Assembly: GCA_003242605.1 (NCBI GenBank)
Contig: QGUZ01000010.1
Location: 1-41,278, forward strand
Origin: Actinomycetota bacterium
GTDB lineage: Bacteria; Actinomycetota; Actinomycetes; Streptosporangiales; Streptosporangiaceae
Direction: 5' to 3'
Length of the DNA: 41,278 bases
Each line of letters opens with the position of its first letter. Position 1 is the first letter of the stretch. Made by a program: the position numbers and the translations under genes. Positions 1 through 25,589 of the stretch are shown one piece after another. The notes under the pieces are model-generated. The model made no database searches. It was not told the DNA's origin and was given only the letters and a program-made list of their open reading frames with translations.

Positions 1-76
1 GAACCCGGTAGTTAAGCCTTCCTGCGCCGATGGTACTGCACCTTGGCGGGTGTGGGAGAGTAGGTCGCTGCCGGAC
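1..76 (+). rRNA. rrf: 5S ribosomal RNA, 3' part
   Basis: The first 76 bases match the 3' two thirds of an actinobacterial 5S rRNA: the GAACCCGGTAGTTAAGCC block, the loop-E region and the closing GGGAGAGTAGGTCGCTGCCG segment are all recognisable. The 5' part (roughly 40 bases) lies before the window. The orientation means that 16S and 23S genes of the same operon should lie immediately to the left. Two terminator-like hairpins follow within 105 bases. Confidence 0.93.
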
Positions 77-17902: not shown

Positions 17903-18739
17903 ATGAGCGCGGAGATCGACCGGTTCGGCGTGCGCACCGAGGCGGGCAGGGCGGCGCTGGAGGCGATGCTCGCCGACCCGGCGGGCGCCGTGATCGCCTC
18001 GGACTTCGACGGCACGCTCTCGCCGATCGTGGCCGACCCGGCCGCCGCGTACATCCACCCCGAGGCCCCGGCCGCGCTCGCCGGGCTCGCCCGCGCGGTC
18101 GCCGGCGTCGTGATCGTCACCGGCCGGCCCGCCGAGCAGGCGATCGCGCTCGGCCGCCCGCCCGGCGGCACGACCGGCCTCGCCGACGTGCCCGGGCTCG
18201 TCGTGCTCGGCCAGTACGGCGTGGAGCGCTGGGAGGACGGCCGCCTCACCGCGCCGCCCCCGCCGCCCGGCCTCGACCGGGTGCGCGCCGCGCTGCCCGG
18301 CCTCGCCGCGCGCTTCCCCGGCGCGCGCATCGAGGACAAGGGCCGGGCGCTCGCCCTGCACACCCGCGGCTGCGCCGACCCGCAGGCGGCACTGGACGCG
18401 CTCGCCGATCCGGTGGCCGAGCTCGCCGCCGAGGCCGGCCTCAAGGTCGAGCCCGGCCGCATGGTGCTCGAGCTGCGCCCGCCCGGCATGGACAAGGGCC
18501 GCGCGCTCGAGGGGTTCCTCGCCGAACGCGGCGCCCGCTCGGTGCTGTTCGCCGGGGACGATCTCGGCGACCTCGCCGCGTTCGACGCGGTGCACCGCGG
18601 CGCGGTCCCGGGCCTGGCGGTGTGCAGCGGCTCGGCCGAGGTGACCGCGCTGCGCGACAAGGCCGACATCGTGGTCGACGGCCCGGCCGGGGTGGTGGAG
18701 CTGCTGCGCGCCCTCGCCGCCGCCCTCGCCGCCCGCTGA
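17903..18739 (+). CDS. otsB: trehalose-6-phosphate phosphatase
   Basis: This 278-residue HAD-superfamily enzyme removes phosphate from trehalose 6-phosphate, the second step of the OtsA-OtsB pathway. Motif I is DFDGTLSPI with nucleophile D34 and acid D36. VIVTGRP is motif II. The lysine of motif III is in EDKGRALALH or GMDKGRAL, and GDDLGDLAAF is motif IV. The length fits OtsB. The ATG at 17903 has GGAGGGGAG immediately upstream at good spacing. The synthase gene otsA lies next to it but on the opposite strand, converging, so the two enzymes are not co-transcribed here. Confidence 0.96.
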   Translation: MSAEIDRFGVRTEAGRAALEAMLADPAGAVIASDFDGTLSPIVADPAAAYIHPEAPAALAGLARAVAGVVIVTGRPAEQAIALGRPPGGTTGLADVPGLVVLGQYGVERWEDGRLTAPPPPPGLDRVRAALPGLAARFPGARIEDKGRALALHTRGCADPQAALDALADPVAELAAEAGLKVEPGRMVLELRPPGMDKGRALEGFLAERGARSVLFAGDDLGDLAAFDAVHRGAVPGLAVCSGSAEVTALRDKADIVVDGPAGVVELLRALAAALAAR

Positions 18740-18788
18740 CGCCGCGCCGTACGGCACGGCGCCCGGTCGGCCGTACGGCATTGCCCGG
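18740..18788. repeat. duplicated palindromic GCCGTACGGC between converging ots genes
   Basis: The 49-base gap between the two stop codons contains GCCGTACGGCA twice, about 24 bases apart, each followed by a CCCGGTC. Each copy is itself palindromic and the two can also pair with each other, so this could be a shared terminator. Confidence 0.45.
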
Positions 18789-20225
18789 TCAGCCGAGCGC
18801 GGCGAGCTGCTCGGCGAGCCACTGCCGGGGCGGCAGCGCGGTGGCGGCCGCGGCGAGCCGGCGGCCGCGCTTGAGCCGCTCGTCCTCGGGCATGGCGAGC
18901 GCCTCGTGCAGCGCCGCGGCGGTGCCGGAGATGTCGTACGGGTTGACGGTGATCGCGTCCGGGCCGAGCTCGGCGGCGGCGCCCGCCTCGCGGGAGAGCA
19001 CGAGCACGCACCGCGGCGACAGGATCGGCCCCTCCTTCGCCACCAGGTTCATGCCGTCCCGGATCGGGTTGACCAGCAGCACGTCGGCGAGCCGGAACGC
19101 GGCGAGCGAGCGCGGGTAGTCGTCGTGCACGTCGAGGATGAGCGGCTCCCAGTCCTCGGTGGCGTACTCGTCCTCGATCTGCTTGGCGCAGCGCATCACC
19201 GCCGCGGTGTACTCGCGGTACTCGGGCAGGTCGTGCCGGGACGGGTAGGCGAAGGCGAGGTGCACCACCTTGCCGTGCCACTCGGGGTGGTCGTGCAGGA
19301 ACTCGCGGTAGGCGAGCAGGCCGCGCACGATGTTCTTCGACGGCTCGGTGCGGTCGACGCGCACGATCAGCCGCCGGTCCCCGACCGCCTCCCGGATCGC
19401 GTGCACCCGGGCCTCGACGTCGGGCTCGGCGGCGCGGGCGAGCAGCGCCGCGCCGTCCACGCCGAGCGGGTGCACCCCGATGCGCGTGGTGCGGCCCTCG
19501 TGGCGCACCGTGCGCGCGGCGCGGTCCACGTCCGCGCCGAGCACCGCCTCGCAGCAGTCCATGAAGGCGTTCGCCCACCGCGCGGTGAGGAAGCCCGCGT
19601 GGTCGGCGCCGAGGATGCCGGAGAGCACCTCGCACGCCACCTCGTCGGGGAGGAGCGAGAAGTACTCCGGCGGGGCCCACGGGGTGTGCGAGAAGTGCGC
19701 CACCCGCAGGTCGGGCCGCTCGCCGCGGAGCATCGCCGGGGTGAGCGTGAGGTGGTAGTCCTGCACGAGCACCCGCGCCCCGTGCGCGGCCTCCTCGGCG
19801 AGCGCCGCGGCGAACATCGCGTTGTAGTCCTGGTACGACTCCCACTCGCGGCGGAACCGCGCCCCGAACGACGGCGTGTTCGGGGTGTCGTAGAGCAGGT
19901 GGTGGACGAACCACAGGGTGGAGTTCGCCACGTCGTTGTAGGCGCGGTGGAACGTCGCCGGCGGGATGTCGAGCATGCGCAGCGGGCCGGTTGGATGACC
20001 GGCGAGGTCGAGCCGGCCGCCCGGGGCCGCCCGGGCCGCGCCGCGGTCCCCCTCGGTGAGCGCGGCGCAGATCCACAGCGGCGGGTCGTCCTCCGCCGCC
20101 TGGGAGAGCCCGGAGACCAGCCCGCCGCCGCCCCGCCGCATGGTGAGCCCGCCGCCCTCGGACAGGGTGAACGAGACCGGCCCCCGGTTGGAGGCGACCA
20201 GGACCGTGTGCATCGTCCTGCGCAT
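18789..20225 (-). CDS. otsA: trehalose-6-phosphate synthase
   Basis: This is a 478-residue GT20 glycosyltransferase joining UDP- or GDP-glucose to glucose 6-phosphate. The N-terminal VASNRGPVSF carries the glucose-6-phosphate-binding Arg-Gly-Pro. VQDYHLTLTPAML holds the conserved Tyr-His pair, FSHTPW is the following loop, RTEPSKNIVRG is the donor-site Arg-Lys block and REAGAAAELGPDAITVNPYD is the C-terminal signature. I chose the ATG at 20225 (MRRTMHTV), which has GGAG 6 bases upstream. The next ATG, at 20213, is also possible, and an extension to 20333 is unlikely. It converges on otsB and diverges from the sigma factor gene. Confidence 0.95.
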   Translation of the reverse strand: MRRTMHTVLVASNRGPVSFTLSEGGGLTMRRGGGGLVSGLSQAAEDDPPLWICAALTEGDRGAARAAPGGRLDLAGHPTGPLRMLDIPPATFHRAYNDVANSTLWFVHHLLYDTPNTPSFGARFRREWESYQDYNAMFAAALAEEAAHGARVLVQDYHLTLTPAMLRGERPDLRVAHFSHTPWAPPEYFSLLPDEVACEVLSGILGADHAGFLTARWANAFMDCCEAVLGADVDRAARTVRHEGRTTRIGVHPLGVDGAALLARAAEPDVEARVHAIREAVGDRRLIVRVDRTEPSKNIVRGLLAYREFLHDHPEWHGKVVHLAFAYPSRHDLPEYREYTAAVMRCAKQIEDEYATEDWEPLILDVHDDYPRSLAAFRLADVLLVNPIRDGMNLVAKEGPILSPRCVLVLSREAGAAAELGPDAITVNPYDISGTAAALHEALAMPEDERLKRGRRLAAAATALPPRQWLAEQLAALG

Positions 20226-20299
20226 CGTCCGCTCCACTCGTCTGTGCCTCGCCGGCGGCTCCCCAAGCAAGCAGGCTAACCAATGACCACCCGCGCCAA

Positions 20300-20305
20300 T
20301 AGGAT
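20300..20305 (+). promoter_or_regulatory. -10 element of the sigma factor gene
   Basis: TAGGAT, a frequent -10 hexamer of the principal sigma factor in actinomycetes, lies 47 bases before the start codon. No clear -35 is seen at 17-18 bases upstream. Confidence 0.35.
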
Positions 20306-20352
20306 GACGGCGCGACGGGGCGCGCGATGACACGCCGATGGGAGTCTGCGAG

Positions 20353-20904
20353 ATGGCGCTGGACGAGACGACCGAACAGCTTGCCCGGGCGGCCGCGGCG
20401 GGGGATCAGCGTTCGCTCGGCGAGCTGCTCGCCCGCATCGAGCCGGACGTGCTCCGGCACTGCCGGCGGCTGCTGCCGTACCCGCAGGACGCCGAGGAGG
20501 CGAGCCAGGACGCGCTGCTCGCGGTCGCCCGCAACATCGCGCGTTTCGAGGGGCGGGCGAAGTTCAGCACCTGGCTGCACATCGTGACCGCGAACTGCGC
20601 CCGCACCACCTACCGCAACCTCAAGCGGCGCGCCTCCGAGCAGGCCGGGGAGCTGCCGGAGCAGCGGCCGGATCCGCGCCGGGTGAGCGTGATCGCGGGC
20701 TCCCGGCTCGACCTGCTCGACGCGATGGAGGCGCTCGAGGCCGACAAGCCCGAGCTCGCCCAGGCCCTGGTGCTCCGCGACATCTGCCAGCTCGACTACG
20801 CCGAGGTCGCCGACCAGCTCGGCATCCCGCTCGGCACCGCCAAGTCGCGCATCCACCAGGCGCGCAAGTACGTGCAGTCGATGCTCGGCGAGGCGTACGC
20901 CTGA
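20353..20904 (+). CDS. ECF-type RNA polymerase sigma factor
   Basis: This is a 183-residue sigma-70 family protein with only regions 2 and 4. Region 2 spans about 25-95, with the -10-binding helix around EEASQDALLAVARNIARFEG and RAKFSTWLHIVTANCART. A linker follows. Region 4 (about 130-180) has the helix-turn-helix LDYAEVADQLGIPLGTAKSRIHQAR that reads the -35 element. The ATG at 20353 is preceded by GGGAG with 8 bases between. An ATG 15 bases earlier has no binding site. No anti-sigma gene follows, since the next feature is a riboswitch 290 bases on, so the mode of control is unclear. It is divergent from otsA, but nothing in the sequence proves it controls trehalose synthesis. From 20905 to 21195 I see no gene. 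Confidence 0.93.
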   Translation: MALDETTEQLARAAAAGDQRSLGELLARIEPDVLRHCRRLLPYPQDAEEASQDALLAVARNIARFEGRAKFSTWLHIVTANCARTTYRNLKRRASEQAGELPEQRPDPRRVSVIAGSRLDLLDAMEALEADKPELAQALVLRDICQLDYAEVADQLGIPLGTAKSRIHQARKYVQSMLGEAYA

Positions 20905-21195: not shown

Positions 21196-21335
21196 CGCTC
21201 ATCCAGAGGGGTGGAGGGACCGGCCCGATGAAGCCCCGGCAACCCTCCCGGTGCACTTCTCGCGAACCGCGAGGCCGCCCGGGACAGGTGCCAATTCCGG
21301 CCCACGGCCAAGGTGGTCGTGGGTGAAGATGAGGA
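21196..21335 (+). ncRNA. SAM-I (S-box) riboswitch
   Basis: All core elements of the S-box are readable. P1 is CTCATC (21198-21203) with GATGAG (21328-21333), perfectly paired. The conserved GGTGGAGGGACCGGCCCGATGA block (about 21210-21231) includes the kink-turn. GCCCCGGCAACC follows, then the GGTGCCAATTCC strand, and P4 is CCCACG (21301-21306) with CGTGGG (21318-21323). It binds S-adenosylmethionine and normally switches off methionine and SAM genes. Only about 20 bases separate P1 from the start codon and no terminator hairpin fits there, so control is probably translational. GGAGAAAGG, the likely ribosome binding site, begins on the last base of P1. Confidence 0.95.
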
Positions 21336-21352
21336 GAAAGGCCTCGCTATTC

Positions 21353-22666
21353 ATGGCGCTCGCAAGCACGGAATCCGTAAGCACGTCCACGCCCTACGAC
21401 TTCGGCCCGGCCGTCGCCCTCTCCTGCCGGGAGTGCGGAGCCCGGTACGCCCTGGGGCCGGAATTCGCGTGTATCGAGTGTTTCGGCCCGCTCGAGGTGG
21501 CGTACCCGTGGAGCACCGGCGGGGAGCTTCGCGCCGACCAGGTCGGTGAGGCGCTGCGGGCGAGGATCGAGAGCGGCCCGGCCAGCATCTGGCGGTACGC
21601 CCCGCTGCTGCCGGTGCCGGCCGACGTGGCGGCCAAGCCCAACCTCGCGCCGGGCTGGACGAAACTGGTGAAGGCCGACAATCTCGCCAGGGAACTCGGT
21701 CTGCGCAGCCTGCACGTGAAGGACGACTCGGGGAACCCGACGCACTCCTTCAAGGACCGGGTCGTGGCGATCGCGCTCGAGGCGGCCCGCACCTTCGGGT
21801 TCCACACGCTGTCGTGCTCCTCGACCGGTAACCTCGCCGGCGCGGTCACCGCGGCCGCCGCCCGCGCCGGGCTCGACGCCTGCGTGTTCATCCCGGCGGG
21901 CCTGGAGGAGGCCAAGATCGTGATGGCCTCCATCTACGGCAAGCGGCTCGTGGCGATCGAGGGCACCTACGACGACGTCAACCGGTTCTGCTCGGAGCTG
22001 ATCGGCGACCCCATCGGCGAGGGGTGGGGGTTCGTCAACGTCAACCTGCGCCCCTACTACGCCGAGGGCTCCAAGACGCTCGCGTACGAGATCGCCGAGC
22101 AGCTCGGCTGGCGGCTGCCGGACAACGTGGTGATCCCGGTGGCCTCCGGCTCCCAGCTCACCAAGATCGACAAGGGCTTCCAGGAGCTGATCAAGCTGGG
22201 GCTCGTCGAGGAGAAGCCCTACCGCATCTTCGGTGCCCAGGCCGCGGGCTGCGCCCCGGTCTCGGCGGCCTTCAAGGCCGGCCACGACGTGGTGCGGCCG
22301 GTGCGGCCGGACACGATCGCCAAGTCGCTCGCGATCGGCAACCCGGCCGACGGGCCGTACGTGCTCGACATCGCCCGGCGCACCGGGGGCGCGGTCGAGG
22401 ACGTCACCGACGAGGAGATCGTCGACGCCGTGCACCTGCTCGCCCGCACCGAGGGGATCTTCGCCGAGACGGCGGGCGGCGTCACCGTCGGCGTGCTGCG
22501 CAAACTCGTCGCGGACGGCCGGATCGACCCCGATGCGGAGACGGTGGTGCTCAACACCGGCGACGGCCTCAAGACGCTCGACGCGTTCTCGGCCGGTGCC
22601 CGGCCCACCGCCACGATCCGTCCGTCGCTCGACGCCTTCCGCGCCGCCTTCCCGGACAATTCCTGA
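21353..22666 (+). CDS. metM: threonine-synthase-like PLP enzyme, probable homocysteine synthase (MetM type)
   Basis: This 437-residue fold-type II PLP enzyme resembles threonine synthase. An N-terminal zinc-ribbon-like pair, C25/C28 and C40/C43 (LSCRECGARY and FACIECF), precedes the catalytic core. The PLP lysine is K134 in HSFKDR, and SCSSTGNLAGA is the phosphate-binding loop. Two context clues argue against plain threonine synthesis: a SAM riboswitch controls it, and the next gene, 13 bases on, encodes a sulfur carrier with a Gly-Gly end. A threonine-synthase homologue named MetM, which makes homocysteine from O-phosphohomoserine with sulfur from the carrier MetO, has been reported in Streptomyces as I recall. 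This pair fits it. The ATG at 21353 is chosen with GGAGAAAGG upstream. The annotation threonine synthase (ThrC) remains possible. Confidence 0.85.
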   Translation: MALASTESVSTSTPYDFGPAVALSCRECGARYALGPEFACIECFGPLEVAYPWSTGGELRADQVGEALRARIESGPASIWRYAPLLPVPADVAAKPNLAPGWTKLVKADNLARELGLRSLHVKDDSGNPTHSFKDRVVAIALEAARTFGFHTLSCSSTGNLAGAVTAAAARAGLDACVFIPAGLEEAKIVMASIYGKRLVAIEGTYDDVNRFCSELIGDPIGEGWGFVNVNLRPYYAEGSKTLAYEIAEQLGWRLPDNVVIPVASGSQLTKIDKGFQELIKLGLVEEKPYRIFGAQAAGCAPVSAAFKAGHDVVRPVRPDTIAKSLAIGNPADGPYVLDIARRTGGAVEDVTDEEIVDAVHLLARTEGIFAETAGGVTVGVLRKLVADGRIDPDAETVVLNTGDGLKTLDAFSAGARPTATIRPSLDAFRAAFPDNS

Positions 22667-22679
22667 AAGGTTTGCAATT

Positions 22680-22955
22680 ATGGCTGTCACGGTACGGATT
22701 CCGACGATCCTCCGTACGTACACGCAGGGTGCCGCCGAGGTCACGGGCGAGGGTGCCACGCTCCGCGAGGTGCTGCAGAAGCTCGACGCGGACTACCCGG
22801 GGATCGGCGCCCGAATTCTCGACGACCAGGGCAAGATCCGCCGTTTCGTCAACGTCTACGTCGGCGAGGAGGACGTGCGGTTCGCCGACGGCCTCGACAC
22901 CGCGATCCCGGACGGGGCGCTCATCTCGATCATCCCCGCGGTGGCCGGCGGCTGA
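22680..22955 (+). CDS. metO: MoaD/ThiS-like sulfur carrier protein (MetO type)
   Basis: This is a 91-residue beta-grasp (ubiquitin-fold) protein. It opens with MAVTVRIPTILRTYTQG, contains the central VNVYVGEEDVRF strand and ends ALISIIPAVAGG. The C-terminal Gly-Gly is the site that E1-like enzymes adenylate and convert to a thiocarboxylate, which then donates sulfur. No activating enzyme (MoeZ/ThiF type) or JAMM protease is in the window, so these must be encoded elsewhere. The ATG has GAAAGG 10 bases upstream. The 13-base gap to the upstream PLP-enzyme gene indicates one operon under the SAM riboswitch. CysO of the cysteine pathway is a close relative in kind, but the neighbour here is not CysM. 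Confidence 0.9.
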   Translation: MAVTVRIPTILRTYTQGAAEVTGEGATLREVLQKLDADYPGIGARILDDQGKIRRFVNVYVGEEDVRFADGLDTAIPDGALISIIPAVAGG

Positions 22956-23045: not shown

Positions 23046-23081
23046 GGGGCCGTCCCGGCGCCGCGCAGAGTCGTGACGCAT

Positions 23082-23116
23082 GACGCCCGCGTGCGAACGC
23101 CGCGTACGCGGGCGTC
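23082..23116 (+). terminator. hairpin terminator of the metM-metO operon
   Basis: GACGCCCGCGT (23082-23092) and ACGCGGGCGTC (23106-23116) form a perfect 11-bp stem with a 13-base loop, followed by the T-containing TTCGCGTTCTGTT. Confidence 0.65.
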
Positions 23117-23273
23117 TTCGCGTTCTGTTCGCTTACGGCGCACCGCGCTATCGGCGGCGAAGTTTGCGAAACGGGATACAAAATCCGAATTTCCCGGAAA
23201 GCGTCCGGCGAGTGCGGATGCGAATCGGTGCGCGGCGTGCGAAGGTCAACGATGAGTTTTGCGGTTGACTCTG

Positions 23274-23408: not shown

Positions 23409-23609
23409 GTGGCGCAGGGCACCGTCAAGTGGTTCAACGCGGAGAAGGGCTACGGCTTCATCGCGGTCGACGGTGGTAAGGATGTGTTCGTCCATTACTC
23501 CGCGATCCTGATGGACGGGTACAAGTCGCTCGAGCAGGGGCAGCGGGTCGAGTTCGAGATCACGCAGGGATTGAAGGGTCCGCAGGCCGAATCCGTCCGG
23601 TCGATCTGA
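23409..23609 (+). CDS. cold shock protein, CspA family
   Basis: The product is a 66-residue single cold-shock domain that binds single-stranded RNA and DNA. RNP-1 is KGYGFIAV (about residues 14-21) and RNP-2 is VFVHYS (about 27-32). [14 protein letters not shown] is the standard opening. The GTG at 23409 has GAGGAG (23396-23401) seven bases upstream. The in-frame extension to 23259 is unconserved and contains the promoter. It lies between the sulfur carrier operon and groEL, an order I recall from Streptomyces. A strong terminator follows. Confidence 0.95.

Positions 23610-23778: not shown

Positions 23779-25589
<1,811 letters not shown>

Follow-up and report, generated by a model that had tools for sequence, protein, structure and literature searches.

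This locus raises the question of which reaction is catalyzed by an enzyme resembling threonine synthase (ThrC) when its gene lies behind a SAM-sensing riboswitch and is directly followed by the gene of a small sulfur carrier. The initial annotation of the stretch of DNA analyzed here as a whole (41,278 nucleotides, hereafter the window) favored a homocysteine synthase over a threonine synthase. As far as computation goes, this preference is supported by the clade, the pocket residues and the distribution of the enzyme. We consider it highly probable that the locus represents the Streptosporangiales version of a SAM-riboswitch metM-metO operon, which would form homocysteine from O-phosphohomoserine and carrier-bound sulfur.

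In the CysO/CysM/Mec system of M. tuberculosis the sulfur used by a fold-type II PLP enzyme comes from a Gly-Gly carrier, and in Wolinella succinogenes homocysteine synthesis is carrier-dependent and employs a MetY-type enzyme and O-acetylhomoserine. MetM is reported to use thiocarboxylated MetO together with O-phosphohomoserine (Hasebe et al. 2024). According to the excerpted text of a report on a Microcystis homologue, MetM of Streptomyces is a homocysteine synthase identified by Hasebe et al. with homologues in cyanobacteria, metM of S. albulus has a SAM riboswitch upstream, and a metO-like gene is annotated as a sulfur carrier (PMC12172450). The same excerpts describe the Microcystis protein, 51.6% identical to S. 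albulus MetM, as showing weak threonine formation at high substrate as well as threonine deaminase activity, and its authors regard it as not fully a MetM in the cell (PMC12172450). In S. lividans TK24, the part of the report at hand places RF00162 before the two-gene operon SLIV_16930-SLIV_16925, listed under threonine biosynthesis, and gives 21 of 22 cis-elements as highly transcribed (PMC8079986).

The RF00162 model matched a complete S-box aptamer in the window, as the initial annotation had read it, over model positions 1-108 of 108 and above the gathering score (74.1 bits against 44.4, E 1.1e-15). It was the sole RF00162 match reported in the source assembly, which comprises 589 contigs and is rated 78% complete (150 of 246 first-look candidates scored). 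The ThrC-like PLP enzyme expected after the aptamer was found as well; by eye, from the leaders of Streptosporangiales and Streptomycetaceae, its start is most likely the ATG at 21353, 17 bases past the aptamer and not 20 as first counted. The carrier gene starts 13 bases beyond the metM stop codon (22664-22666), and both this spacing and the MoaD-like nature of its product, which ends in AVAGG, were confirmed (ThiS PF02597, 56.1 bits, cut-off 22.5). A ThiS-family Gly-Gly carrier thus stands directly downstream of the enzyme, as in MetM/MetO. The positions and spacings given in the initial annotation were accurate to within a few bases. Further downstream, the stretch 23072-23125 folds with a minimum free energy of -35.6 kcal/mol (z -3.82; one in 200 shuffled sequences at least as stable); the strong hairpin predicted there, which went unreported in the terminator scan, is a possible operon end. 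The features are collected in Table 1 together with the neighboring genes.

Table 1. Features of the window; positions are counted from its first nucleotide.
Feature	Position	Strand	Description and basis
5S rRNA end	1-76		
Trehalose-phosphatase and family 20 glycosyltransferase	17903-20333	opposite orientation	
ECF-type sigma factor	20338-20904		
SAM-I (S-box) riboswitch aptamer	21196-21335	+	RF00162 match, complete model
Expression platform	21331-21345	+	leader comparison, motif count, folding with P1 forced or blocked
metM	21353-22666	+	fold-type II PLP enzyme, threonine-synthase homologue; TIGR00260/PALP, tree, pocket columns
metO	22680-22955	+	ThiS/MoaD/CysO-type sulfur carrier, 91 residues, ends IIPAVAGG; PF02597
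Strong hairpin downstream of metO	23082-23116	+	candidate operon end; folding
Cold-shock protein	23409-23609		
GroEL-type chaperonin	23853-25589		

Profile matches assign the enzyme to the threonine synthases. The window enzyme, which carries an N-terminal four-cysteine stretch, exceeded the cut-off of the TIGR00260 thrC model (282.3 bits, cut-off 167.1) and matched Pfam PALP with 230.9 bits. Against M. tuberculosis ThrC (2d1f) it reached 171.5 bits, and the canonical ThrC encoded elsewhere in the same genome (L003) reached 486 bits. A structure model built from 31 sequences was mediocre (pLDDT 69.7) and too weak for inspecting the pocket; its best Foldseek matches were threonine synthases, with TM-scores near 0.55-0.6 and a large rmsd.

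Phylogenetic analysis placed the window enzyme apart from true ThrC. The tree of 58 rows, calculated by a quick method and containing long branches, above all that of Arabidopsis ThrC, sampled six of the 29 loci from Streptosporangiales, six of the 80 named ones, 21 of the 29 from the phylum draw and 11 of 13 ThrC. In it the window enzyme fell within a clade of 35 proteins, set off by a branch with SH-aLRT 100, that also took in all six of the named Streptomycetaceae enzymes; five threonine synthases from the PDB and 11 ThrC of Streptosporangiales, among them the genome's own, stood beyond a branch with SH-aLRT 99. RF00162 was present at 31 and the carrier at 33 of the 35 clade loci. The window enzyme is 76-83% identical to Streptomycetaceae enzymes (30 of the 80 named loci aligned), and through these its orthology to S. 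albulus MetM is drawn. Seven distant homologues (the "third" rows) fell outside the clade but shared the enzyme's half of the midpoint-rooted tree. Some Streptosporangiales genomes (L083, L085-L090) additionally encode distant ThrC-like enzymes that belong to neither clade.

The separation is accompanied by fixed differences at positions that line the ThrC pocket. In an alignment of the 35 clade members and 15 ThrC, from whose counts Arabidopsis ThrC and the seven "third" rows were excluded, T. thermophilus residues Thr88, Ser155, Asn157, Arg160, Gln164, Asn188 and Ala240 were conserved in 15/15 ThrC. The corresponding residues of the window enzyme are Leu161, Asn231, Arg233, Tyr236, Ser240, Ser265 and Ser325, and they are fixed in 35/35 clade members, whereas the catalytic PLP lysine and the S-T-G-N loop are retained. 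The enzyme thus resembles ThrC of M. tuberculosis (2d1f) and T. thermophilus (1uim) in its fold type II, PLP lysine and predicted substrate O-phosphohomoserine, and differs from ThrC of known structure by its separate clade, the seven replaced positions and only 35% identity to the genome's own ThrC. It is most likely an O-phosphohomoserine-dependent homocysteine synthase (MetM), as predicted from these sequence comparisons.

The best solved chain for the metO product was 3dwg_C (E 1.2e-25), named 9.5 kDa culture filtrate antigen cfp10A, which we take to be M. tuberculosis CysO, and the carrier is 57% identical to the CysO-like carrier of the same genome. Among 80 carriers of the named set (79 from Streptomycetaceae, one from Nonomuraea), 51 end in PAVAGG, 25 in AVAGGC and 4 otherwise. 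The genome's own CysO-like carrier (L005, 1495-1770, minus strand) ends in AVAGGAG, two residues past the Gly-Gly, where the metO product ends in AVAGG. Carriers with such tails may need trimming before loading.

The combination of riboswitch, enzyme and carrier is widespread. The enzyme was detected in 61/61 Streptosporangiales genomes drawn, the source genome included, with 67-85% identity in the others, and 60 of the 61 contain a further, weaker homologue. Of 246 genomes drawn across the phylum, 88, the source genome again among them, yielded a match at E 1e-70, and a further homologue was present in 24 of the 25 of them that were re-searched at a laxer limit. At the Streptosporangiales loci, both RF00162 and the carrier accompanied the enzyme in 29/29, these being the best 29 of the 60 other matches, and for this reason the arrangement is not due to chance. 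Across the phylum (best 29 of 87 loci), the carrier was found at 27/29 loci (absent from L069 and L072) and RF00162 at 25/29 (absent from L059, L060, L063 and L072). Among the named loci, which are the best 80 of at least 591 confirmed Streptomycetaceae plus one Nonomuraea, 80/81 had the carrier, the exception being L120, a locus ending just after the enzyme, and RF00162 occurred in all 20 scanned (19 named and the Nonomuraea). The sequence of the latter, NZ_LT559118.1 of Nonomuraea gerenzanensis (11.85 Mb), is filed as a plasmid and, judging by its size, is presumably a chromosome. L069 and L072 encode enzymes of the clade with no carrier detected within about 1.5 kb; the riboswitch is kept in L069 and missing in L072.

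The leader between aptamer and gene is likewise conserved. P1 is formed by pairing of CUCAUC (21198-21203) with GAUGAG (21328-21333), and its 3' strand abuts the probable ribosome-binding site GAGAAAGG (21334-21341), which is directly followed by CCUC (21342-21345). GAGG (21331-21334) overlaps the 3' strand of P1, and an alternative GAGG/CCUC hairpin would hold the ribosome-binding site in its loop. The order GATGAG (P1 3' strand), purine-rich ribosome-binding site, CCTC and ATG is near-invariant in Streptosporangiales and Streptomycetaceae: a strict pattern of it was matched by 28/29 Streptosporangiales loci, the source locus (1/1), the Nonomuraea locus (1/1), the f5 loci (8/8) and 79/80 named loci, and by 0/21 of the other phylum loci. 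The two misses were L036, where the elements are present with different bases after the ATG, and L169, which lacks CCTC.

Modeled accessibility of the ribosome-binding site is consistent with a role of this leader in translation. Out of 58 leaders with coordinates, 46 were given to folding, and 45 were compared after L169 had been dropped for want of CCTC. Mean openness of the ribosome-binding site was 0.54 with P1 forced and 0.74 with P1 blocked, and it was higher with P1 blocked in 37/45 leaders, a modest effect among leaders that are related to one another; in the other 8/45 the site was no more open without P1. Upon in silico replacement of CCTC the difference disappeared (0.59 vs 0.58). 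The short GAGG/CCUC hairpin alone showed ordinary stability (z -0.04; 94 of 200 shuffled sequences at least as stable), and the pair offers no covariation to test because both partners hardly vary. The case for this putative hairpin is therefore conservation together with the modeled accessibility difference, with modest support from folding. In the window, a terminator scan reported no terminator-like site from the end of the aptamer to the start of metM. Since such a site is lacking and the leader is conserved, the translational control which the initial annotation had called probable is plausible, at the strength that the modest folding support allows.

The remaining pathway genes of the source genome bear on the interpretation of the locus. 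A separate canonical threonine synthase is encoded beside the homoserine kinase gene thrB, and the window enzyme is accordingly not the only ThrC-like protein of the genome. The initial annotation had proposed looking for such a gene next to hom/thrB; thrB lies on the other side of it, and no hom was seen beside it in an ORF reading of a 7.5 kb stretch. A genome free of metX and metY, also hoped for at the outset, was rejected: the product of metX matched PRK00175 (488.3 bits, cut-off 331; TIGR01392 441.7 bits, under the cut-off of 500), and the gene after it encodes a metY-type O-acetylhomoserine sulfhydrylase (TIGR01326, 624.3 bits, cut-off 495.1). MetM/MetO is consequently no stand-in for missing metX and metY in this genome, which is a matter of context and does not define the system. 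The metM-metO and metX-metY routes appear to coexist, and because metX-metY is present, methionine could be supplied without MetM. A MoeZ-like protein (ThiF and rhodanese domains) and a mec-cysO-cysM set are encoded elsewhere in the genome; the window locus itself is no operon with mec and cysM.

The situation differs in many related genomes. MetX was found in 20/61 Streptosporangiales genomes (E 1e-40 or better; 19/59 good genomes) and in none of the other 41 genomes drawn. MetA and HcyBio were each found in 0/61, with controls positive in 8/14 and 3/14, respectively. The searches thus revealed no known acetyl- or succinylhomoserine enzyme for 41 of the 61, which leaves them O-phosphohomoserine. 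A plant-like cystathionine gamma-synthase may also use O-phosphohomoserine in these 41 genomes.

The computed riboswitch, gene order, clade, pocket changes and distribution, together with the presence of ThrB, ThrC and the MoeZ-like protein, suggest the following route. The MoeZ-like protein would charge MetO with sulfur, forming a thiocarboxylate at its Gly-Gly end. MetM would bind O-phosphohomoserine, the product of ThrB, eliminate its phosphate on PLP and add the carrier sulfur at C-gamma rather than water at C-beta; once freed from the carrier, the product would be homocysteine. Abundant SAM would cause the aptamer to close P1 beside the ribosome-binding site, and translation would fall. 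The direction and level of this switch, like the reaction, the sulfur path and the release step, are what we infer for the locus. The locus shares with S. albulus MetM/MetO the ThrC-like PLP enzyme, the adjoining carrier gene and, according to the excerpts available, the upstream SAM riboswitch, and differs in its Streptosporangiales host and in the additional presence of metX-metY. From the Wolinella system, which also passes carrier-protein sulfur into homocysteine, it is distinguished by the latter's MetY-type enzyme and O-acetylhomoserine.

Other products have to be weighed against homocysteine. One alternative is that the enzyme is a further threonine synthase and the carrier gene a bystander, in line with the filing of the S. 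lividans operon under threonine biosynthesis in the accessible part of its report (PMC8079986). This would agree with the exceeded TIGR00260 cut-off and the top Foldseek matches; however, the genome already has a canonical ThrC beside thrB, the enzyme belongs to a clade separate from ThrC with fixed pocket-residue differences, the carrier stands alongside it at 27/29 phylum loci (best 29 of 87), and a SAM switch over threonine synthesis would make little regulatory sense. We give this reading a small probability. Smaller still is the probability that the carrier is a CysO and the enzyme uses O-phosphoserine or some different acceptor to form cysteine or a compound resembling it. The similarity of the metO product to 3dwg_C, presumably CysO, and to the genome's own CysO-like carrier speaks for it, and the Gly-Gly carrier and fold-type II PLP enzyme are common to both systems. 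The enzyme, however, stands nearest to threonine synthases and not to CysM, on a different PLP-enzyme branch and in a different operon, the mec-cysO-cysM set exists separately in the genome, and the signal sensed is SAM.

That the enzyme acts mainly as a threonine deaminase, the role put forward for the Microcystis homologue (PMC12172450, in excerpt), appears the least probable, since a SAM riboswitch and a sulfur carrier would make no sense with it and the Microcystis gene is described in those excerpts as having no riboswitch. As this homologue behaves otherwise, activity cannot be read from homology alone. The preferred reading of the locus as a metM-metO operon is in line with the S. lividans arrangement of RF00162 ahead of two genes and departs from the threonine biosynthesis annotation given to it in the available part of that report (PMC8079986).

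Deep-branching actinobacterial copies of the operon suggest that the switch may act in more than one way. Unlike the short Streptosporangiales leader, those of L065 (1437-1461) and L062 (1413-1433) carry, according to the terminator scan, a terminator-like hairpin between riboswitch and gene. By eye, five deep-branching copies had been read as terminator-like; the scan bore out these two and reported no site after the aptamer in the other three (L073, L068 and L056). For L073, folding nevertheless gives a long hairpin with T's behind it. We tentatively suggest that SAM-gated metM-metO might be an old homocysteine route, broadly retained in Actinomycetota, in which one aptamer and operon have two switch outputs: translation in Streptosporangiales and Streptomycetaceae, where P1 would compete with the GAGG/CCUC hairpin, and transcription in at least two deep-branching copies. 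Where metX-metY coexists, SAM might then help to choose between carrier sulfur and free sulfide. We rate this proposal as less likely than not, and slightly lower than before the scan, because the scan supported two of the five deep-branching copies.

A search of the open-licence literature returned no paper describing the operon from Streptosporangiales or how broadly it occurs, which is no proof of absence. The initial expectation that a Streptosporangiales copy with a SAM-I element would extend the system holds in range and not in kind, because the excerpted reports already place SAM riboswitches on such operons in S. albulus (PMC12172450) and S. lividans (PMC8079986). What the present analysis adds is the breadth of the operon and the conservation of its leader, where P1 directly adjoins the ribosome-binding site.

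Because the NCBI thrC model accepts the sequence, the enzyme will be labeled threonine synthase, a label that its operon, its clade and the residues of its pocket make very likely wrong. The fixed differences in the pocket point to a simple rule by which such annotations could be corrected. Genomes with both routes offer a natural test of why the carrier-bound sulfur route persists, and in lineages without metX methionine synthesis may run through MetM.
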